This document shows positions 2,519 to 18,873 of a stretch of DNA of 21,656 nucleotides, piece after piece. The notes beneath the pieces were generated by a model that worked only from the letters and a program-made list of their open reading frames with translations, was not told the origin of the DNA and searched no databases. The DNA comes from a virus. The stretch spans positions 1 through 21,656 of IMG/VR virus record IMGVR_UViG_3300023175_000231. The stretch is one strand, 5' to 3'. The translations under genes and the position numbers were made by a program. Numbering within the stretch: position 1 is the stretch's first letter; each line of letters opens with the position of its first letter.

Positions 2519-2773
2519 TTACACTCGCCAGACCACGGTTTCTGAGTATGGAACTTCATAGTGATCTAACCACTGATGAGTGACTTCGTAATCTTTGTCT
2601 ATATCACGTCTACATTCAATAATGACTTTGTATCCTGATTTATACCATTGGATCATTTTATCAATCATCAAAACTGCAGGCTGTGCATTGTAGATACCAT
2701 ACTTGTCTTCTGGTGATCCTACCTTCCCCGCAATGCAAATAGATTCCATGTCAACTATGATTGTCGGTGTCAT
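2519..2773 (-). CDS. Short HAD-superfamily-like protein with altered catalytic motif
   Basis: An 84-residue protein resembling small HAD phosphatases. The N-terminal strand TPTIIVDMESI (2-12) aligns with the hhhDxDGT nucleophile motif, with D8 as nucleophile, but the second Asp is Glu (E10) and the following Thr is not conserved. YKVIIECRRDID (49-60) matches motif II, and HQWLDHYEVPYS (66-77) matches the T..WL...G..Y segment of capsule-biosynthesis-type HAD proteins. The Lys and the C-terminal Asp motifs are not evident, so it may be inactive or a minimal member. It overlaps the sulfotransferase-like gene by ATGA (2770-2773), implying translational coupling, and is the last gene of the long operon. 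Confidence 0.5.
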   Translation of the reverse strand: MTPTIIVDMESICIAGKVGSPEDKYGIYNAQPAVLMIDKMIQWYKSGYKVIIECRRDIDKDYEVTHQWLDHYEVPYSETVVWRV

Positions 2774-3543
2774 ACGAATAATCCTTCTACGTCAAAATCT
2801 GGAATGTCTGGTTTTCCATCTACCCAAACATATTCATGATTATATTTCTTGTAAGGTTGTGTTGCGAAGTAGTCTTCCATGCAAACTACTTCTATATTGG
2901 GTACTTGTTGTTGAATGTATGCCATTCTTTTATAATTGTTGATTAACTGATGAATAGTTTGTTGAACAAAAATTCCATGCATGTCACCTTTAACTTTGCG
3001 TTTGACAACATCTTCACGATATTCCGTCCCTACGTGCATATCAAAATGGTAATCCACTCCATGTACCAATCCATGTCTATGGTTCTTGAATCCATTTTGA
3101 CCAAACCGGCCATCACTTCTCATCCCAACCCAACTAAGGACTTGTGCTTCCCAATCACGACGATATAAGAGGTACACTTTATCACAAGATGCCACAACTT
3201 CGACATCTCTTTCGTCCAAAGTCGGATCCTCGTTTAGTTCCCAAGTTTTAACAATATGATCGGGCATCAACTTAAAACAAATTGGTTCACCAGATTGGAT
3301 ACCCTTTAGATAGTCACCAAAAAAGTCACGATCTCGTGTAAAGGTTTTAACCAATGGGTTGTCTGGTTGTTTTCGAGCAATATCTAGTTCTTCCCAATGT
3401 CCCCTGTGACCAGCATAGTCCCAAGGACGTTCGTGACTGAATAGTTCTCCCTTATACGGAAGATCAAATTCTCTCGATTTTAAAAGGGTGAATGATGTAC
3501 TTCCTGAACGGAAGTTTGTAAGAACACATACCGTATTTGTCAT
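2770..3543 (-). CDS. Sulfotransferase-like protein
   Basis: A 257-residue protein. Near the N-terminus VCVLTNFRSGSTSF (5-18) fits the 5'-phosphosulfate-binding loop of PAPS-dependent sulfotransferases (usually RSGTT/S). KVYLLYRRDWEAQVLSW (122-138) fits the 3'-phosphate-binding segment, with R129 and S137 as candidate ligands. Predicted role: transfer of sulfate from PAPS to a glycan or another acceptor. It begins with ATG after GGAGATAAA. It overlaps the HAD-like gene by 4 nt and lies 11 nt after the DruA-like gene. An APS-kinase-like gene far upstream in the same operon (12475-12909) could supply PAPS. The acceptor is unknown. Confidence 0.55.
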   Translation of the reverse strand: MTNTVCVLTNFRSGSTSFTLLKSREFDLPYKGELFSHERPWDYAGHRGHWEELDIARKQPDNPLVKTFTRDRDFFGDYLKGIQSGEPICFKLMPDHIVKTWELNEDPTLDERDVEVVASCDKVYLLYRRDWEAQVLSWVGMRSDGRFGQNGFKNHRHGLVHGVDYHFDMHVGTEYREDVVKRKVKGDMHGIFVQQTIHQLINNYKRMAYIQQQVPNIEVVCMEDYFATQPYKKYNHEYVWVDGKPDIPDFDVEGLFV

Positions 3544-3554
3544 TTTATCTCCAA

Positions 3555-4655
3555 TTATCGAATGATGTCGATATCACTGTCTGCAGTCCATATCTCTAAA
3601 TCATTGCGCAATCTATCTTCTTCTTTTAGTTTGTTGTACCGTTTAGTTGCAAGTTTACGCCACCATTCAATGACATTCTTTTGATAGAACTTATCATAGT
3701 TCTGCGCTTTAACGATTTCGTCTGTCTTACCATTGACAATATCAATATAGTTTTCGATACCATAGTTAGACACATAGTAACGTTTCTGTTCTGTCAACGA
3801 CTTTGCATCTTCGATTGTCTTTTTGAACTTATCAAGTTCCCCACCTTTGAGAGACTTCTTAATCAAACCAATGATGGCATTAGTCATCTTAAGTTTACGA
3901 CTAGATGCGCCTTCTTTGACTAACTCACCACGACCAACAATGTCCTCGACATACGCTACTAAGTCAAGGTAAGGTTTACCATGCAACATAGGAATGAAGT
4001 CGGACATAGTGTTACCTTTGTAACGCAACAACGGTTTCATACCGTCATACATCGATGCACCCTTTGTATTTCCGTACAAGGATGTAGTCTCGAACATTAC
4101 GAGATTCATTCCATATTTCTTGTTGAGTTTTTCTCTGACTTCGTGCGTACAACACAGTGCAGCGAGAAGTTTACCACCAAGATAATTGTAACCAAACGGT
4201 TGACAGGGAACGATAACGAACCCCATCATTGCAGTCTTATTGAAGTTAGTAAGATCTGGTACACCACCCAAGAGTTGATTGCGTGGTGCACAATTGATCA
4301 CAGGACTACCGAAACGCATGAACCCTACAAACTGTCCAGTCTTCTTTTCTTTGACTGCAAGTTTCAGGGCCTTGCCAGGGATGGAGACCATGTTACTATG
4401 ACTACTGATCATATTTAGACACGTGTCCCAAGTCATATTATCAAGTTCGACGACTTCTAAATCCATGTCTTCTGGGGACATAGAGAAGTCGTCGAACATA
4501 TCTGTATCAAATCCAAACCCTGGCAAGGTTTGCGGAAGTTCAGCAATCTGCGCCATCTTTTGGTCACGCATATATTGGTCAATCCTTTCGAACTGACCAA
4601 AGTAATTGTTAAAGATGTTTGCGCAGTGTAGTGCTTGTTCAGTATTAAGCTGCAT
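3555..4655 (-). CDS. DUF4338-like protein resembling Druantia DruA
   Basis: A 366-residue protein from the ATG at 4655. The middle (about 90-215) has the landmarks of DUF4338: VGFMRFGSPV (110-119), the RNQLLGG segment (125-131), MMGFVIVPCQPFGYNYLGGK (143-162), KKYGMNLVMFETTSLYG (179-195) and KGASMYDGMKPLLRYKGNT (198-216), the latter matching the family's YG..P.L.ETF..G..Y...NW...G.T. DUF4338 includes DruA of the Druantia anti-phage system; its biochemistry is not known to me. The N-terminal 60 residues are acidic and the C-terminal third is Lys-rich and helical. In-frame GTG (4658) and TTG (4661) lie just upstream; GGAG is 17 nt before the ATG and 11 nt before the TTG. It overlaps the MazG-like gene by 11 nt or more. 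The family call is by eye. Confidence 0.5.
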   Translation of the reverse strand: MQLNTEQALHCANIFNNYFGQFERIDQYMRDQKMAQIAELPQTLPGFGFDTDMFDDFSMSPEDMDLEVVELDNMTWDTCLNMISSHSNMVSIPGKALKLAVKEKKTGQFVGFMRFGSPVINCAPRNQLLGGVPDLTNFNKTAMMGFVIVPCQPFGYNYLGGKLLAALCCTHEVREKLNKKYGMNLVMFETTSLYGNTKGASMYDGMKPLLRYKGNTMSDFIPMLHGKPYLDLVAYVEDIVGRGELVKEGASSRKLKMTNAIIGLIKKSLKGGELDKFKKTIEDAKSLTEQKRYYVSNYGIENYIDIVNGKTDEIVKAQNYDKFYQKNVIEWWRKLATKRYNKLKEEDRLRNDLEIWTADSDIDIIR

Positions 4656-4911
4656 CACCAAGAGATAAGTTGCTCCATGTTTTCAATTTTTCACGTTTTG
4701 CGTCTGCACACGCTTCTACATTATTCCAACTGATAAGATCCCACTCATGTAACAGATTAAGCATACACATAACATCTCCGACTTCAGATTCCAATTTTGA
4801 ATTGTTATCATAACCAAATCGGATCATCTTCGAAACTTCAATTGCAAGTTCATTGCACTCTTCCATAAGAATGACCATCAGTTCGTCTCGTTCGTCTAAT
4901 TTAGTATTCAT
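4645..4911 (-). CDS. MazG-like nucleotide pyrophosphohydrolase, small
   Basis: An 88-residue all-alpha NTP pyrophosphohydrolase-like protein. It has the paired metal-binding motif: E17-E18-x-x-E21 (MEECNELAIEVSKMIRFGYD) and E43-x-x-D46 (ESEVGDVMCML). Such enzymes hydrolyse nucleoside triphosphates to monophosphates and pyrophosphate; phage versions have been proposed to act on dNTP pools or alarmones. AGGAG lies 9 nt before the ATG. A perfect sigma70 promoter covers the same Shine-Dalgarno and start codon. It is distinct from the MazG-like gene at 5359-5709, which has a longer C-terminus. Confidence 0.7.
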   Translation of the reverse strand: MNTKLDERDELMVILMEECNELAIEVSKMIRFGYDNNSKLESEVGDVMCMLNLLHEWDLISWNNVEACADAKREKLKTWSNLSLGDAA

Positions 4912-5348: not shown

Positions 5349-5375
5349 TATACTACCCTTATACAAACTTGGCAA
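5347..5375 (-). promoter_or_regulatory. Candidate sigma70 promoter over the 2OG oxygenase start
   Basis: Minus-strand TTGCCA (5375-5370), 17-base spacer, TATAAT (5352-5347). The geometry is the same as at 4910-4938: the final AT of the -10 belongs to the ATG of the next gene. The -35 differs from consensus at one base. Confidence 0.4.
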
Positions 5376-5709
5376 GGTCTGGCGCAACCCAACCTTCAGG
5401 TTTTAGGACTTTTCCGTCCTCACGTTTGCGAACCTTTCCAGTGTCTGGATCGATCTTCGCAAAATTAGTTTTCATTACTTCTTCCCACGCACCTTCTCCG
5501 TCCCATCCTGCGGCACGAATTGCGCCCATAGTAACAACAAGAATATCAACCAGTGCATCTAGTTGTTCGACCTTATCTTGATTTGATACTGCTTCTTGAA
5601 GTTCTTGATACTCTTCAGAAATCAATCCCAAGTACATTTCGTAGTTTTCAGGTGATGGTGATTGATCACACGCTGTTCCAAATGTGTCAATGTCTTTAAA
5701 TGGATTCAT
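5359..5709 (-). CDS. MazG-like nucleotide pyrophosphohydrolase
   Basis: A 116-residue MazG/all-alpha NTP-PPase-like protein. E32-E33-x-x-E36 (SEEYQELQEA) and D51-xxx-D55 (DALVDILVVTMGAI) are the predicted magnesium-binding acids. The downstream segment GAWEEVMKTNFAKID (73-87), followed by TGKVRKREDGKVLKPEGW, is typical of phage and bacterial MazG-like enzymes of this length. Predicted role: hydrolysis of (d)NTPs, or an alarmone-related activity as proposed for cyanophage MazG. AGGAAGG lies 8 nt before the ATG. It overlaps the tiny membrane-protein gene by ATGA. Confidence 0.8.
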   Translation of the reverse strand: MNPFKDIDTFGTACDQSPSPENYEMYLGLISEEYQELQEAVSNQDKVEQLDALVDILVVTMGAIRAAGWDGEGAWEEVMKTNFAKIDPDTGKVRKREDGKVLKPEGWVAPDLAKFV

Positions 5710-6070: not shown

Positions 6071-6243
6071 GATACCATCCTTTTCAAATTTTCGATTTCA
6101 TCTTTTAATTTCAACTTTTCTATCTTCGCACGTTTGATAGATTCTTCTGGTGCTTTCTCAGCTTCTAACGCTTCAACCATTGCATGTTGATGGTTGTGTT
6201 TCTGTATTAACCACAGTATCTTTTGTTCTGTCTTACTGTTCAT
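6067..6243 (-). CDS. DUF465/YdcH-like small helical protein
   Basis: A 58-residue protein starting MNSKTEQKILWLIQKHNHQH and ending in a charged helix with IEKLKLKDEIENLKR (41-55). The H...L..........LK..KLKLKDEI layout matches DUF465 (YdcH-like) two-helix hairpins; their function is unknown. GGAGGA precedes the ATG by 9 nt, inside the end of the polymerase gene. It overlaps both neighbours by 4 nt (6240-6243 and 6067-6070), so it is translationally coupled to gp43. Confidence 0.7.
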   Translation of the reverse strand: MNSKTEQKILWLIQKHNHQHAMVEALEAEKAPEESIKRAKIEKLKLKDEIENLKRMVS

Positions 6244-8774
6244 ACAAAGAAATCCTCCAATGTGTTTACTTTCTCAGGAACCCACCCAATAGCTTCAAGG
6301 ATTGGTTCGATAGGTCCAAGGAAAACTTTCTCAAACTGCTTCTCGTAATCGATGTACTGTTGCAGTTCGAACTCTTTTGGTAGTACGCCTGGGAAGGATA
6401 TCATGTTCTCCTTCACAGGGTTTGGTTGTTTAAGGTATACAAACTTGATCTTATCACCAGACTGGATAGACTCATATCTTTTGTCCAAGTCCTTTGACTT
6501 CAGGAACTGATTGAACAGGATGCACCCACGCACGTGCATAGGACAACCCTTCTTGTAACCACCACGATCCATATACTTTTCGATGTTGTCAGTTCCTGAG
6601 TTCTTTGCGATATCTTCTGGGGGTAGATTATAGAACTCTTTCTTGAAGTTGGCAATAAATTCTTGCGTATCTTCTTCAGTACCTTCCATGATCACCTTGA
6701 ATGCATCCTTCAGTTTGTCACGACAGATCTGGGGGGTAGACGAACGAACAGACTCCAAACCAGTCACAGAGATCTTAGGTTCCTCATAGTGGACACCCTC
6801 AGAGTTCAGTGCGTTCATGATGTAACGTTTCTTTGCAATGAACACAGACTTGTCAGTGATCTTCTCACGTTTCATGAACATTGCTTGACGGAATGCACCC
6901 ATTCTCTTTGCAAGTTCTTCATATCCTTTTTCAAGGACACCTTCAATCTTTGTACCACAGATCTGATCAAGAAACTTCTCACCTTGATCACGAGTGATAT
7001 CGACAGTACCAAAAACCTCTTCAATCAGTGGACCAAAGTTTACATAGATGGAGTCGGTATCGATGTATACAATGTAGTCGACATCTTCTGTCTTTAGGAT
7101 CTTGTTCAGATATTCATTCACAGACTTCTGTGCGTAACGAATAGACAACTGACCAGAAGTAGTAATCGCCTCTGCGAATTCCATAATATAATACAGGAAG
7201 TAAATGTTCGCAGTCGCACCATACAAAGAGTTCATAGAAATCTTAATAGACATCTGCGAGTTGTGAAGTTGGGTCATTTCCCTTTTAAGTTTAGACTTCG
7301 TTGCAGGATCTTTTTCCACTTCCATTTGTTGTTCGACTGCGAGCATTTCTTTTTTGATTTGCTTTCGTCGTCCGTAGTACTCGTCAATGATTTCTGGGAT
7401 GATTCCGATTTTGTCGTTGGAGAAGCAAACACCGTTTGCAGCGACACTAACATTAGGATCGTCATTTTGATAATTCCCTTCTAATACCATTTCTTGTGAA
7501 ACAGATTCCAAACGTTGGGGAACCAGTGTTTCTGGTGACATATTATACTGCAACATCAAGTGCGGATACAGTGAGTTCAAATCAAAAGACACCACCCAAG
7601 GATGCATCCCCACTTTGGGATCTTTCACATAACCACCAACAAGTTCATCACCACGTTGGCCTGGCCCGTGTTTAAGTGGCGGAACCATACCCTCTTTCAG
7701 TAGACGACGATAGATAGTGGTCTCCCAATAACCCACCGTACCGAACGCATCACGACAGTTCACACCACCGTCATACGCAAGAGTCATCACCAACGACATC
7801 AATGCAACCTCATCTTCTAGTCGTTGGATCAACCAAGTATCTTTGAGGTTATAGTCCAAGTAGAGTTGGGGGTTCTGTTCGTACAGTGCAGTAAGGTTAC
7901 CATACTCAGAGTAATCCAACTTCTTCTCGCCCAACACAACGTGTGCGATGTGATCTAACTTGTAGGTCTCCTGCGTACCATATTTGTACGCAAACTTCTT
8001 GAAAGTATCCAAGTAATCCACAACGTGAAGACCAGAAATGGTCCACGTGTGTTGAGTCTTACCGAACATCTCTTTTGTATCTTTACGCAGACCTTTCCAA
8101 GGCGATAGTTCCTTTGCAGTGTTCTCACCACAGATCCGAATGATACGAGTCACTAGATACTGGATATCAAAGAACTCGACGTTCCATCCAGTAACAATGT
8201 CTGGGTAATCATTTTTCCAGATCTGAATGAACCGAAGAAGAAGTGCCTTCTCAGTGTCGAACTTCATGAACTGAATGTCTTCTGGATCGATGTCAGTGAT
8301 TGTTGCGTACTTGTCATAGTCCTTACGTCCCAGAAGATGGTACGTGTCAGACTTCGAAGACTTGTACGCAATCGAAGTGATCTCTTTATCTGCAGTTTCA
8401 ATGTTTGCGTAACCATCACCAATATCAACCTCAATATCGAATGAGGCGATGTTGATCAGTTGCATATCAAAAGAAACTTTTGATGGGTATTTCTCTTGAA
8501 TGAACTGGGCCACATAACTCTGTGTACCATTGATACTAAAGTTAGAAACATCTTTGTAGTCTTCTATAAACTGTTTCGCCTCCGACATAGAGTCGAAGGT
8601 TTTCTTTGCAAGTGGTTTGTTTCCAATCAAAGAACGGAAGTCGCCACCTGACTTAGATTGTAGATAGAAAGATGGTTTGAACTTTACTTTGCGGGAAAAA
8701 CGTTTACCGTTCTCGTACCCTCTCCAAAGTATATTGTTACCAAACCTCTCTACTGATGTGTAGAAAGAACTCAT
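6240..8774 (-). CDS. 43: Family-B DNA polymerase (gp43)
   Basis: An 844-residue replicative polymerase of the T4 gp43 type (T4: 898 residues), complete with proofreading. Exonuclease motifs: ExoI FDIEVD (D113, E115), ExoII WNVEFFDIQYL (D203) and ExoIII YNLKDTW (Y308, D312). Polymerase motifs: A, FDLNSLYPHLM (D398); B, KISMNSLYGATANIYF (511-526); C, YIDTDSIYVNF (D572, D574). All catalytic acids are present and there is no intein or split, as seen in some relatives. It acts at the replication fork with the clamp and clamp loader, which are outside the window. AAGG lies 6 nt before the ATG, which overlaps the preceding gene by ATGA. An intragenic promoter at 8814-8842 probably drives it. Confidence 0.97.
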   Translation of the reverse strand: MSSFYTSVERFGNNILWRGYENGKRFSRKVKFKPSFYLQSKSGGDFRSLIGNKPLAKKTFDSMSEAKQFIEDYKDVSNFSINGTQSYVAQFIQEKYPSKVSFDMQLINIASFDIEVDIGDGYANIETADKEITSIAYKSSKSDTYHLLGRKDYDKYATITDIDPEDIQFMKFDTEKALLLRFIQIWKNDYPDIVTGWNVEFFDIQYLVTRIIRICGENTAKELSPWKGLRKDTKEMFGKTQHTWTISGLHVVDYLDTFKKFAYKYGTQETYKLDHIAHVVLGEKKLDYSEYGNLTALYEQNPQLYLDYNLKDTWLIQRLEDEVALMSLVMTLAYDGGVNCRDAFGTVGYWETTIYRRLLKEGMVPPLKHGPGQRGDELVGGYVKDPKVGMHPWVVSFDLNSLYPHLMLQYNMSPETLVPQRLESVSQEMVLEGNYQNDDPNVSVAANGVCFSNDKIGIIPEIIDEYYGRRKQIKKEMLAVEQQMEVEKDPATKSKLKREMTQLHNSQMSIKISMNSLYGATANIYFLYYIMEFAEAITTSGQLSIRYAQKSVNEYLNKILKTEDVDYIVYIDTDSIYVNFGPLIEEVFGTVDITRDQGEKFLDQICGTKIEGVLEKGYEELAKRMGAFRQAMFMKREKITDKSVFIAKKRYIMNALNSEGVHYEEPKISVTGLESVRSSTPQICRDKLKDAFKVIMEGTEEDTQEFIANFKKEFYNLPPEDIAKNSGTDNIEKYMDRGGYKKGCPMHVRGCILFNQFLKSKDLDKRYESIQSGDKIKFVYLKQPNPVKENMISFPGVLPKEFELQQYIDYEKQFEKVFLGPIEPILEAIGWVPEKVNTLEDFFV

Positions 8775-9277: not shown

Positions 9278-9297
9278 AATATCACCTGTTTGTCAAG
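9269..9297 (-). promoter_or_regulatory. Weak candidate promoter after gp46
   Basis: Minus-strand TTGACA (9297-9292) overlaps the gp46 stop codon and is followed after 17 bases by TAAATT (9274-9269), matching TATAAT at four of six positions. The ATG at 9277 lies in the spacer, so it could only serve the following genes (8771-9052 and gp43). Confidence 0.3.
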
Positions 9298-11005
9298 GAC
9301 TAATCTCACTAAAGTTTTTGTTTTTCATAAATTTGATATGTGACGTAAACTTCTCAGCGAACTGGTCCCCACGGTGAGAAATAACAAAGATGTTATCGTC
9401 CGTGTTTAGATTGTGGAGTGTTTCGATCAGACTGTCAATACCAACGCCATCAAGTGCACCGTCAAGTGTTTCATCCAGTAAGAGTAAGTTTGTACTGACA
9501 CTATTCCGCAACTTTGCGACTGAACGCCACGCAAGCATAATAGATAGTGTAATACGAAGTTTCTCTCCCTCAGAGAATGAAGCATATGAGAAGGTGTCAC
9601 GAAAACGAGACTTGATAACCTCGTTAAAATTTTCATCTAGTTGGAAGTCGACGAACAGATCGAACGCACCCAAATATTTATTAATGAGTTTGTTCATTAC
9701 TGGAATGTACTGTGCAATAATTCTTGCTTTGATACCACCGTCCTTCAATATAGTCGAAAGGACACCCAAGACACTTTGATTGTCTAGTAGTTCTGCACGA
9801 TCCTTTTGTAAAACCTTTAATTCTTTTTCAAAAGATTTTAATTTTGATGTATCAACTTCTTCGACCAATGCTTCTGCATTGTCTAGATCATTTTTGTAAG
9901 ACACAAGTGCATTCTTCGCAATCTTGATCTCACCACGGTTCTCTTTGATTTCTAAATTTTTGTTTTGAATCTCTTTTTCTATCTCTGAGATTTCTGCAAT
10001 ACGAGATTGGTATCCTTCGATTCGTTTATCGATTTCAACCATACCGCTCTCAATTTGGACTTTCTTGTCTTCTTTTTCTTGGATAACTGTTTCTTTAAAG
10101 TCATGTTCGATCCCCTGTTTGCAGACAGGACAACTATCATTATCATGGTAGAAGTTCAAGTCTTTTACGAAATTGCGCAGATTGTTACTCAAATCCCTAC
10201 GAATGTCTGTAGCTTGCGCAAACTTGTTTTCAATACCTTCTTTGTCAGATATTGTTTCATACAGAGATGCAATCTCTGTTTCGATTCCTTCAATAAAATT
10301 TTTACATGAGTCAATCTTATCCAAGTGAACCTGCATCTTCTCACGAATCTTTTCTACTTCAGTTTCACGGATCTTACGAATAGACTCATTGTGTTCCTGT
10401 GCGCTTTCAATTCGTTGATTGACCAAATCGCTCTTGTAGTCATTATCTGTCAAGTTTGCACGGTTCTCTGCAATACGATCCTTCGCAAGAAGGTTCATAG
10501 TACTGAACACTTGGATATCAAGAAGATCTTCAATGATTTCACGACGAGTGGACGCAGGAAGTTCCATAAACGGAACATACGTTGCACTACCAAGCACAAC
10601 GATCTGATTGAAAGATTTGTAATTGATACCAAGAATAGATGATTCAAGATACGCTTGATAGTCTTTGACTGCAGCATCTTGATCAACCATTTTACCGTCT
10701 TTGATGATCTCAAAGAGATTTGGTTTCATTCCACGTCTGACTGTGTATTCGTTTCCACCAACACTAAAGTCGATCTCAACCATAAGGTCTTTCTTGTTGA
10801 TGGAGTTCATCAACTGACCCTTATTGATCTTGCGGAAAGGTTTACCATACAACCCAAAAGTAATTGCGTCCAATAGTGTAGATTTCCCTGCACCATTAGT
10901 ACCGCTTATGAGTGTTGTTGGTTTCCTATCTAGATCAATTTTTGTGAATACGTTACCAGTCGAAAGTATGTTCTTATATCGAACTTGTCTAAAGTGTATT
11001 CTCAT
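9293..11005 (-). CDS. 46: Recombination endonuclease large subunit gp46 (SbcC/Rad50-like)
   Basis: A 570-residue ATPase (T4 gp46: 560) that works with gp47 to resect DNA ends for recombination-dependent replication. Walker A is GTNGAGKST (35-43). A long coiled coil (about 180-400) is interrupted by the zinc hook CPVC (292-295), which dimerises the complex. The ABC signature is FSEGEKLRITL (477-487), Walker B is LLLLDE (507-512), and H544 is the switch histidine. The domain order is complete. The ATG overlaps the end of gp47 by 4 nt (11002-11005) without a strong Shine-Dalgarno, so translation is probably coupled to gp47, fitting a two-subunit complex. Confidence 0.96.
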   Translation of the reverse strand: MRIHFRQVRYKNILSTGNVFTKIDLDRKPTTLISGTNGAGKSTLLDAITFGLYGKPFRKINKGQLMNSINKKDLMVEIDFSVGGNEYTVRRGMKPNLFEIIKDGKMVDQDAAVKDYQAYLESSILGINYKSFNQIVVLGSATYVPFMELPASTRREIIEDLLDIQVFSTMNLLAKDRIAENRANLTDNDYKSDLVNQRIESAQEHNESIRKIRETEVEKIREKMQVHLDKIDSCKNFIEGIETEIASLYETISDKEGIENKFAQATDIRRDLSNNLRNFVKDLNFYHDNDSCPVCKQGIEHDFKETVIQEKEDKKVQIESGMVEIDKRIEGYQSRIAEISEIEKEIQNKNLEIKENRGEIKIAKNALVSYKNDLDNAEALVEEVDTSKLKSFEKELKVLQKDRAELLDNQSVLGVLSTILKDGGIKARIIAQYIPVMNKLINKYLGAFDLFVDFQLDENFNEVIKSRFRDTFSYASFSEGEKLRITLSIMLAWRSVAKLRNSVSTNLLLLDETLDGALDGVGIDSLIETLHNLNTDDNIFVISHRGDQFAEKFTSHIKFMKNKNFSEISP

Positions 11006-12066
11006 CCAAGATTCAAAGCCTCAAAATATAATTCATTTACCAAAGATTTGATCTTTTGCTTATCGATGTTTGTATCCAAACCATCGATGTATTGATGCAA
11101 AATCTCTTTTGTATCCTTTGTCTCATCTAAGATTTCTTCCGCACCTACGTTTTCGAGGTTCAAGGAATCGTCAATAGATTTGATATCCACTGCACCACTC
11201 TCTCCAAGTTTGTTCATGAACAAGTCATAGAGATATGCATTGGTACGGTTCTTGACAATCACCTTGATATACGCATCTTCCAACATAGACACGTCGAGAC
11301 CGTTAATGTCATCGACAGTCATGTCTTCATCGTCGTAATCAATCTTGTGGAATATTCTATACGGATTTTCTACAAATGTCAAGTCTTTTGTTTCGGTATC
11401 AAAAGTATGGAACCCACGTTTACCACCATAGTCTGACCAAGTCATCTCATATGGCGCACCAAGGTATTCAATGTTTGAGTACTTTGATGGGTGATGGAAG
11501 TGTCCAGAAAAAACGTTTTCAAAAGATTTAAATACATCCATGTCGAGACCATGTGTACATACAGTACCTCGCATCATCTCGAAACCCTTTACTTCAAGAT
11601 GTCCTAATAGAACATCTGCATCTGTATTCTCAACTTTTGTTAGAATTGCATCACGATTATTTTTTGTGATCCAAGGCGTCATCAAAAACTTTGTTGAACC
11701 TTTCTGCAGTTCAACCGCTTCGTTTTCATATAGGGTGAAGTTGTCGTATTCACGCAACAACAGATCCATACTGTTGATGTCATTTGTGTTTGTATAATAT
11801 ACTGAGTGGTTACCCACCAGTGCATGGTATTCGATATTACGTTTAGCGAGTTCGTCAAAGAAGAACTCTTTACCACGTTTCAGTGTGTTGTAGTTGATGA
11901 ACTTTCGACGATCAAAAGTATCACCCAAGTCAAACACGGTATCAATTTTATTCTCATCCAAATATGGAAAGAACACATTGGCAAAAAATCGTTCTTGATT
12001 GTCTAGGAATACCTGACTATCTCCACGAACACCGATGTGCATATCTGTTATAATCGCAATCTTCAA
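11002..12066 (-). CDS. 47: Recombination endonuclease nuclease subunit gp47 (SbcD/Mre11-like)
   Basis: A 354-residue calcineurin-like metallophosphoesterase that is the nuclease partner of gp46. Metal-binding motifs are in order: DMH (D8, H10), DLGDTFD (D49), GNH (N86, H87), GHLE (H156) and GHFHH (H189, H191). The start codon is TTG, 6 nt after GAGGG, and overlaps the stop of the nucleotidyltransferase gene; no in-frame ATG retains D8. The rare start may lower its translation or depend on coupling with the upstream gene. Confidence 0.95.
   Translation of the reverse strand: MKIAIITDMHIGVRGDSQVFLDNQERFFANVFFPYLDENKIDTVFDLGDTFDRRKFINYNTLKRGKEFFFDELAKRNIEYHALVGNHSVYYTNTNDINSMDLLLREYDNFTLYENEAVELQKGSTKFLMTPWITKNNRDAILTKVENTDADVLLGHLEVKGFEMMRGTVCTHGLDMDVFKSFENVFSGHFHHPSKYSNIEYLGAPYEMTWSDYGGKRGFHTFDTETKDLTFVENPYRIFHKIDYDDEDMTVDDINGLDVSMLEDAYIKVIVKNRTNAYLYDLFMNKLGESGAVDIKSIDDSLNLENVGAEEILDETKDTKEILHQYIDGLDTNIDKQKIKSLVNELYFEALNLG
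11354..11382 (-). promoter_or_regulatory. Possible intragenic promoter within gp47
   Basis: Minus-strand TTGACA (11382-11377), 17-base spacer, TAGAAT (11359-11354). It would start transcription inside gp47 and could add gp46 mRNA. It lies in conserved coding sequence and one -10 base is off, so chance is possible. Confidence 0.3.
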
Positions 12067-17265: not shown

Positions 17266-17469
17266 ATGAGAGAAATTCTTTTAGAAGCCCTGAGAAGTCA
17301 TGCACAGGGTCATGTCGACAAACACAAAGCAAATGTCGAAGTATACTTAAATTCAACAACTGGTATTGGGGAACACCCAGACATTATTGAAGCAATGGAA
17401 ATGGAAATCATGGAAATTGCAAAATATGATGATGTCCTAGAAATGTTGGAAAAGTATTTTAACAAATGA
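17266..17469 (+). CDS. Small conserved phage protein
   Basis: A 67-residue, mainly helical protein starting MREILLEALRSHAQGHVDKH, with an acidic second half (EAMEMEIMEIAKYDDVLEML). I recall similar proteins in T4-like cyanophages; no function is known. I chose the ATG at 17266, 6 nt after GGAG, over the in-frame ATG at 17254, which contains that Shine-Dalgarno. Its stop overlaps the FkbM-type methyltransferase start (ATGA, 17466-17469), so the two are coupled. Confidence 0.7.
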   Translation: MREILLEALRSHAQGHVDKHKANVEVYLNSTTGIGEHPDIIEAMEMEIMEIAKYDDVLEMLEKYFNK

Positions 17470-18179
17470 ACCACAAAGCTTTAGATCCTCACAAACTTAG
17501 TACTGAGGGTATTGATCTTTCACAGGCAGCACATCTTTATTCTGAGTTTTTCAAAACTTGTGAATATAACTGGTGGTATGAAGTACTACCAGATGATATT
17601 GTCGTGGACATTGGTGCCTGTGTCGGTTTCTTTTCTGCAAATGCATTAGACAAAGGTGCGGATCGTGTATACATGATCGAACCCAATCGTGATCTATTGA
17701 AAACTGCAATACGGAATGTTTCCGATTACATCATTGATGATAACACTCGTGTTGTTCCAATTCATGGTGCAATTTCATACAGTCCGTATGATACATTACA
17801 TGTATTTGGTGAAGGTGATGTAGATTATCCTACATTTACCTTCACTCAATTTTTAAATGATTATAACATTGCTCAGATCGACTTTTTGAAAATCGATTGT
17901 GAAGGTGCAGAATATAATATCCTACAACCAGAAATGATAGATTGGTTTGAAAATAATGTTCGACACATGGCAATTGAATGTCACTTACGTGCAGCGGATG
18001 ATTCACCAAGACAGTTTATAAGATTTCGAGATACTTTTCTTCGACACTTTATGGATAAAAATAAAGTTCGTGTTCAGAACAATTATGTCCGTAATGCGAT
18101 AAATGAAGATTGGGCAATGATGCAAAGAGACTGGACAAAAGTTCCACCAGAGTTCATGATCTATATCACGAATTGGTGA
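17466..18179 (+). CDS. FkbM-type SAM methyltransferase (plus-strand copy)
   Basis: A 237-residue class I methyltransferase of the FkbM type. SAM-binding motif I is IVVDIGACVGFF (45-56), the acidic residue closing strand 2 is E72 (MIEPN), and the FkbM hallmark is FLKIDCEGAEYNIL (140-153). FkbM-type enzymes O-methylate sugars and other metabolites. The gene has no strong Shine-Dalgarno and is coupled to the small gene before it. Its last codons (YITNW) overlap by 14 nt the end of a paralogous gene on the opposite strand. Confidence 0.8.
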   Translation: MNHKALDPHKLSTEGIDLSQAAHLYSEFFKTCEYNWWYEVLPDDIVVDIGACVGFFSANALDKGADRVYMIEPNRDLLKTAIRNVSDYIIDDNTRVVPIHGAISYSPYDTLHVFGEGDVDYPTFTFTQFLNDYNIAQIDFLKIDCEGAEYNILQPEMIDWFENNVRHMAIECHLRAADDSPRQFIRFRDTFLRHFMDKNKVRVQNNYVRNAINEDWAMMQRDWTKVPPEFMIYITNW

Positions 18180-18181
18180 TG
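18164..18181. repeat. Near-palindrome at the overlapping ends of the methyltransferase genes
   Basis: ATCAC...GTGAT flanks an AATT centre where the two convergent FkbM-type genes overlap; both strands encode the same C-terminal motif YITN here. It is a by-product of two homologous ends meeting, and could have guided or followed an inverted duplication. Confidence 0.45.
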
Positions 18182-18873
18182 TACAACATAAAAGAAGATC
18201 CCCATCCGATTGGCCAATCTCCACGCAGCTTTTCGTCGTCGTGCGATAACACTCTATCTTTGTGTGTTAAAAATCTCACTTGGTCTAAGTTAAAGTGGTT
18301 AACAACATGATCTCTAAAGTGTATCCATTCGTATGGTGCTTCTCTAAACGCATCCAAATGAAACTCAACTGCGATGTGTTTAACGTGATGTTTTAAGAAT
18401 AGAATATTTTCTTTCTTGAAGATATCAAATTCTGCTCCCTCAATATCAATTTTTAAAAAATCAATATTGTGGATCTGGTGTTCGTGCATCAGTTCCATAA
18501 ATTCTTTACGTGGTGCATCTACATTTTCACCATAGTAATTCAACGCATATCTATCTGCTTTACCTATTGCAGCATGGATAGGTACAACACACGACTTTGA
18601 ATTGTCGATCCAATGTTCAGAAACATTGTAACATAAAGTTTTAAGATGTTCTCTATTAGCTTCGACTGCATAAACTTTCTTTGCCCCACGATCCAAAGCG
18701 TGACATGTGAAGAAACCAACACATGCGCCAAGGTCAACGACGATGTCGCCTTCTTGAACCTCATACCACCAGTCGTAATCTTTTCTTTGGAATAATTCGT
18801 GGAACATGGTGTTTACATCTAAAATGTTTAGACCATCTGTTCGCAAATTGTAATTTAGATACTTGTCTTTCAC
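18166..18873 (-). CDS. FkbM-type SAM methyltransferase (minus-strand copy)
   Basis: A 235-residue paralogue of the plus-strand enzyme. It shares YDWWYEV near residue 33, motif I IVVDLGACVGFF (44-55), E71, VVPIHAAI (96-103), FLKIDIEGAEFDIF (139-152) and the C-terminal YITN. The start codon is GTG with GGAG 8 nt before it; an in-frame stop lies two codons upstream, so no longer start exists. The intrinsic terminator of the preceding outer-membrane gene lies just upstream (18891-18913), so it needs read-through or a promoter I cannot see. Confidence 0.8.
   Translation of the reverse strand: MKDKYLNYNLRTDGLNILDVNTMFHELFQRKDYDWWYEVQEGDIVVDLGACVGFFTCHALDRGAKKVYAVEANREHLKTLCYNVSEHWIDNSKSCVVPIHAAIGKADRYALNYYGENVDAPRKEFMELMHEHQIHNIDFLKIDIEGAEFDIFKKENILFLKHHVKHIAVEFHLDAFREAPYEWIHFRDHVVNHFNLDQVRFLTHKDRVLSHDDEKLRGDWPIGWGSSFMLYITNS

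Follow-up and report, generated by a model that had tools for sequence, protein, structure and literature searches.

What would a relative of DruA, from the Druantia defence system, be doing among the replication genes of a phage? The question is raised by a single open reading frame in the window, a stretch of 21,656 nucleotides from the IMG/VR virus record IMGVR_UViG_3300023175_000231 that represents a fragment of a T4-like marine phage. The original prediction had assigned the encoded protein to the DUF4338 family of DruA from the order of its motifs, had placed the gene in a replication operon, and had suggested that the product could be a decoy, an inhibitor or a superinfection weapon.

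The gene and its surroundings

The placement in a phage replication operon is confirmed by the surrounding genes, as gp43, gp46/gp47, UvsW and UvsY, together with a late-sigma-like protein, are encoded on the same strand as the DruA-like gene (Table 1). The start codon of the latter overlaps the stop end of the upstream MazG-like gene. Pfam and PHROG searches gave no match for the protein at the downstream border of the slot; its N-terminus, LTNFRSGSTSF, resembles the PAPS motif of sulfotransferases.

Table 1. Coordinates of the DruA-like gene, its conserved regions and its neighbours in the window.
Feature	Position	Strand	Basis or remark
DruA/DUF4338-like protein, 366 aa, phrog_19197	3555..4655	-	ORF (ATG at 4655, stop at 3555), Pfam, PHROG, PADLOC, profile-profile comparison
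PF14236 DruA match, residues 81-192	4080..4415	-	Pfam
Predicted GNAT-like strand and helix, residues 142-168, AMMGFVIVPCQPFGYNYLGGKLLAALCC region	4152..4232	-	structure model and alignments
Second conserved block, residues 187-216, FETTSLYG...YDG...KGNT	4008..4097	-	alignment
MazG-like pyrophosphohydrolase, upstream border of slot	4645..4911	-	annotation
Unclassified protein with sulfotransferase-like RSGSTS motif (by eye), downstream border of slot	2770..3543	-	adjoins Dam in sister contigs L085-L088
Second MazG/PRA-PH-type pyrophosphohydrolase	5359..5709	-	annotation
gp43-type family B DNA polymerase, replication context	6240..8774	-	annotation
gp46/gp47-type recombination nuclease genes, replication context	9293..12066	-	annotation

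Two further regions of the window were noted. A 461-aa protein encoded on the minus strand (1031-2416) has a weak PADLOC match to NsnA (E 5.7e-9), and inspection by eye showed DUF262-like and HNH-like motifs in it; it is possibly a GmrSD-like phage nuclease. Two similar methyltransferase-like genes, 17466-18179 on the plus strand and 18166-18873 on the minus strand, converge with overlapping ends; the former matches Pfam FkbM, and the latter is alike by eye.

Family membership and predicted fold

The protein from the window is a true member of the DruA/DUF4338 family. The PF14236 profile, termed DruA, matches it with an E-value of 1.5e-7 (31.3 bits, against a Pfam gathering cut-off of 27), the DruA profile of PADLOC does so with an E-value of 1.3e-7, and PHROG 19197, to which no function is assigned, spans it from end to end. 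PF14236 was also found in all 38 homologues of the alignment, at the E-value limit used, with a best value of 1.7e-23. When an alignment of the phage clade alone was compared with DruA from four plasmid loci, the profiles matched over 181 columns (Prob 98.3, E 1.1e-14); with other settings the comparison scored 94, while column- or block-shuffled controls (n=25) reached at most 12, showing that the match did not arise by chance. The outcome that would have spoken against the family assignment, a profile search without a significant match, thus did not occur.

The region shared through Pfam is limited to the central 110-160 residues. Within it, the domains of the phage protein and of Druantia DruA are colinear, and both possess LGGKL in the predicted strand and helix as well as a TTS...Y...G.T block. 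Four residues, R125, Y203, G214 and T216, do not vary among the aligned phage, Druantia and transposon DUF4338 proteins, and Y203 is a candidate catalytic residue. Nevertheless, the phage protein differs from DruA in its C-terminal third, and its gene lies in a replication operon without DruB, DruC, DruD or DruE, unlike the plasmid DruA loci (P. putida pKF715A, N. watsonii pNWAT01, Haloplanus and Meiothermus), in which DruA is accompanied by a large DEAD/DEAH helicase and further partner genes. A PADLOC scan of nine further ORFs of the window gave no match to any Druantia component, including druB-E and the large helicase DruE, and with gp43, gp46/47 and MazG genes as neighbours, a Druantia system in the window was rejected. 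Transposon-linked DUF4338 proteins are more distant from the phage clade, with LAS in place of LGG, and their direct profile comparison with it depended on the settings, yielding an E-value of 5e-6 in one comparison and a non-significant result in another.

Homologues were found in at least about 600 stretches of IMG/VR and, counting GenBank/RefSeq duplicates, in 31 phage records, which belong to phages of Synechococcus and Pelagibacter or are single-cell records of marine viruses. A second clade, represented by a 432-aa protein of Pelagibacter phage Mosig, shares about 24% identity and has a DruA match with an E-value of 1.8e-22; HTVC008M carries one copy of each clade about 12 kb apart (locus L082 and record positions 86143-87255). 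DruA-like proteins of Synechococcus phages such as S-PRM1 have already been published (Phold, NAR 2026, PMC12774648), so that the family assignment itself is not new. The S-PRM1 homologue belongs to the same family and shares 48% identity with the window protein; the pertinent passages of that report note the structural similarity and do not mention the alternation with Dam described below.

A sequence-based search for relatives of solved structure found none. The AlphaFold2 model of the window protein (pLDDT 87) is in line with published work in which DUF4338 is termed a GNAT domain (PMC10853773). GNAT acetyltransferases made up nearly all Foldseek hits in the PDB, with probabilities of up to 1.00, modest E-values (1.9e-3 at best) and TM values of 0.2-0.3 over the whole protein, and the window protein is therefore predicted to adopt a GNAT-like, acyltransferase-type fold. 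The model of the Mosig-type protein was of low confidence (pLDDT 72) and matched GNAT structures only weakly. In BFVD, predicted structures from giant viruses matched the DruA-like fold (Faunusvirus, E 7.8e-15; Yasminevirus; Dasosvirus), a sign that Klosneuvirus-type giant viruses of protists may likewise encode DUF4338-like proteins.

Exchange with Dam in the replication region

Across 336 locus records, core replication genes on the same strand flank the DruA-like gene. By record counts, in which some contigs are present twice under different locus ids, it lies between gp44 and gp62 in 113, between gp43 and uvsX in 57, next to an upstream gp41 in 24, and between MazG and the homologue of the gene at 2770-3543 in 18, with the remainder mostly at contig edges. 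The last arrangement is that of the window and of L084 and L090, and MazG neighbours are confined to one lineage (19 of 336 loci). The gene is kept across pelagi- and cyanophages, syntenic in the replication region of hundreds of marine T4-like phages; it has retained its active-site-like motifs and evolves under purifying selection, with a median dN/dS of 0.12.

Among relatives without the gene, those nearest to the window phage (L085-L088) have a 292-aa D12 adenine methyltransferase (Dam; PF02086, E 3e-22) in the same gap. This substitution extends to the other slots. Dam lies between gp44 and gp62 in the cyanophages Syn19, P-HM1 and ACG-2014d and after gp43 in Phage C48C1, and the Dam loci of IMG/VR fall into the same four contexts as the DruA-like gene. 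In a scan seeded with gp44, 54 slots had both gp44 and gp62 in view: 32 held Dam, 13 the DruA-like gene, 9 neither and none both, an exclusion with a hypergeometric p of 4e-7 when kinship is ignored. On the gp44 tree, 31 changes of state are needed, implying that the swap is frequent, and 12 independent pairs on supported branches give a p of 0.0005. A particularly close pair is formed by L416 and L544, in which the flanking DNA is about 91% identical at the nucleotide level on both sides and the gene between gp44 and gp62 has been exchanged.

The exclusion also holds beyond the slots themselves. The two genes were together in none of the loci scanned, and no D12 methyltransferase scored over the cut-off in any of the 32 DruA-like-bearing contigs of at least 30 kb or in 12 of the 13 DruA-like-bearing isolate or single-cell records. 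The exception, S-SCSM2R, encodes elsewhere in its genome a D12 protein 23-25% identical to the slot Dams. Conversely, PF14236 was detected in none of 13 Dam-bearing records and in 13 of 13 positive controls. Counts by organism word, drawn from separate sets unmatched by record, point in the same direction: for Synechococcus, Cyanophage and Prochlorococcus, respectively, they are 376, 61 and 24 for gp43-like proteins, 330, 60 and 24 for Dam, and 25, 1 and 0 for DruA-like proteins. In the literature searched, which was limited in extent, no description of this exchange was found.

Some of the slots with neither gene hold small unrelated ORFs or a deaminase-like or homing-endonuclease-like gene, and small extra ORFs often lie beside either Dam or the DruA-like gene. 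In the gp44-gp62 slot of L542, homing-endonuclease-like ORFs adjoin Dam and gp62 is apparently split.

Avoidance of GGCC and GATC

With the genes themselves masked, GGCC is depleted around Dam (O/E 0.36) relative to DruA-like genes (0.88), the largest difference among the 256 tetramers (p 4e-8). Of 23 pairs matched on gp44, 19 had more GGCC in the DruA-like member and 3 had less, and the gp44-seeded loci alone gave 1.09 for DruA-like and 0.26 for Dam. In samples of 34-60 kb from isolates, O/E values of 1.1-1.3 were obtained for S-PRM1, S-T4, DSL-LC02, AG-345-O18 and S-CREM1. Yet four bearers of the DruA-like gene, S-SCSM2R, Sf-FS3, S-B68 and HTVC008M, still avoid GGCC (0.28-0.37), so that the effect is clade-dependent and universal protection of GGCC by the gene is ruled out. 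The relief of GGCC avoidance may also reflect host range, an uncontrolled confounder both here and for GATC.

GATC presents a different picture. Pelagi-type DruA-like loci at gp43/uvsX have an O/E of 0.17, HTVC008M 0.24 and Mosig 0.05, compared with 0.96 and 0.91 in the presence of Dam. Since pelagiphages avoid GATC despite carrying the gene, the DruA-like protein does not simply replace the protection afforded by Dam in these phages, and GATC protection equivalent to that of Dam is ruled out there. It follows that if the DruA-like protein does modify DNA, its target differs from that of Dam, a protein of unrelated family that is similar in occupying the same slots. In the lineage of the window, avoidance of GATC is seen with neither gene (O/E about 0.97). 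The strong avoidance of GATC (0.05-0.24) concerns L629-L631, L674-L676 and gp43/uvsX loci of pelagiphages without Dam and is absent from Dam-bearing relatives, although SAR11 bacteria are reported to have no identifiable RM systems and few defence systems (PMC9516812).

Possible relationship to the Mom protein of phage Mu

Mom of phage Mu (PF25680; PDB 8bv8) is a GNAT-type protein that modifies adenine in DNA, and members of its family transfer an acyl-type group onto DNA (PMC7824862). The profile of transposon DUF4338 proteins aligns with phage Mom proteins over 171 columns with an E-value of 5e-7; with other settings the value was 1.7e-9, against 6e-5 for the best of 25 shuffles. This match speaks for kinship within the GNATs, and a closer link with Mom in particular is no more than suggested by it; as shuffles rather than other GNAT families served as controls, it could reflect general GNAT likeness. 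The phage clade itself, by comparison, showed no significant direct similarity to Mom in hhalign, and the Pfam scan of the window protein gave no PF25680 hit; its membership of the Mom family is accordingly not supported. Druantia DruA likewise had no direct profile-profile match to Mom. A homologue in S-SCSM2R is annotated as Mom, and no direct profile match stands behind that name.

Alternative explanations and proposed role

That the DruA-like gene and a DNA methyltransferase gene alternate at four slots and never co-occur is most simply accounted for by related roles of the two proteins, and with Dam as its counterpart in a shared slot, the DruA-like gene is more readily linked to DNA modification than to interference with Druantia. 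A decoy or inhibitor that blocks the Druantia of the host therefore appears highly improbable: the homology to DruA is real and degraded homologues can be dominant negatives, but this protein has conserved motifs, a low dN/dS and core-like synteny, the defence systems reported for SAR11 are few, and the alternation with Dam would be left unexplained. These observations, along with the lack of a Druantia partner in the nine further ORFs, leave each of the functional readings in the original prediction, the superinfection weapon included, unsupported, while its family and operon assignments stand.

Other GNAT activities might also be considered. Acylation of a protein of the phage replisome or of host RNA polymerase, like that by the phiKMV-type GNAT Rac, would suit the predicted fold and the position of most loci between the clamp-loader genes or after the DNA polymerase, and protein-acetylating phage GNATs are known (PMC7824862). 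We nonetheless regard it as unlikely, as it does not explain why the gene and that of a DNA methyltransferase exclude each other in four slots, and elsewhere the family is found in settings that concern DNA (Druantia, DndF fusions and transposons). An action on nucleotides or on tRNA or other RNA, such as supply of a modified dNTP to the polymerase or acylation of tRNA, is very unlikely; GNATs do acylate aminoacyl-tRNA, TacT and AtaT entries are among the weak structure hits, and MazG pyrophosphohydrolase genes adjoin the DruA-like gene in the window, yet such neighbours are restricted to a single lineage and no base-synthesis partner was observed. Finally, it is rather improbable that the slots are general hot spots in which two common and functionally unrelated passengers come and go. 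The small, deaminase-like or homing-endonuclease-like ORFs in and around the slots fit such an explanation, but the same two families alternate in all four slots, and independent passengers would be expected together about 8 times in 54, where none was found.

We therefore favor, at roughly even probability, the reading in which the DruA-like protein is a GNAT-fold alternative to Dam in marine T4-like phages and probably acyl-modifies the phage's own DNA at sites other than those of Dam. During replication, the protein would attach a small acyl-type group to bases in this DNA, and the resulting mark would label it or shield it from restriction, so that selection would exchange one DNA modification for another. 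The comparisons above establish the family, the predicted fold class, the gene context and the exchange, while catalysis, DNA as the substrate and protection from restriction are inferred. The lesser avoidance of GGCC around DruA-like genes and the Mom-like profile of transposon DUF4338 proteins are in keeping with this reading. By extension, DruA may be a DNA-modifying component of Druantia. A broader proposal, in which DUF4338 proteins are widespread, Mom-related DNA-modifying GNATs that serve phages as an anti-restriction cassette exchanged with Dam and Druantia as a supplier of modification, is possible but more tentative. The reading of Druantia resembles other systems with a YprA-family helicase and modification partners: DISARM and ARMADA include methyltransferases, and Druantia type II carries the predicted methyltransferase DruM. 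DruM has been named as a component of that type (PMC8565338).

The function of DruA was not described in the literature searched, and the exchange with Dam offers a concrete answer, DNA modification, for which isolated phages can be named. If correct, it would reveal a new class of DNA modifier in abundant ocean phages, and Druantia type I would be reinterpreted as a modification-linked defence system.
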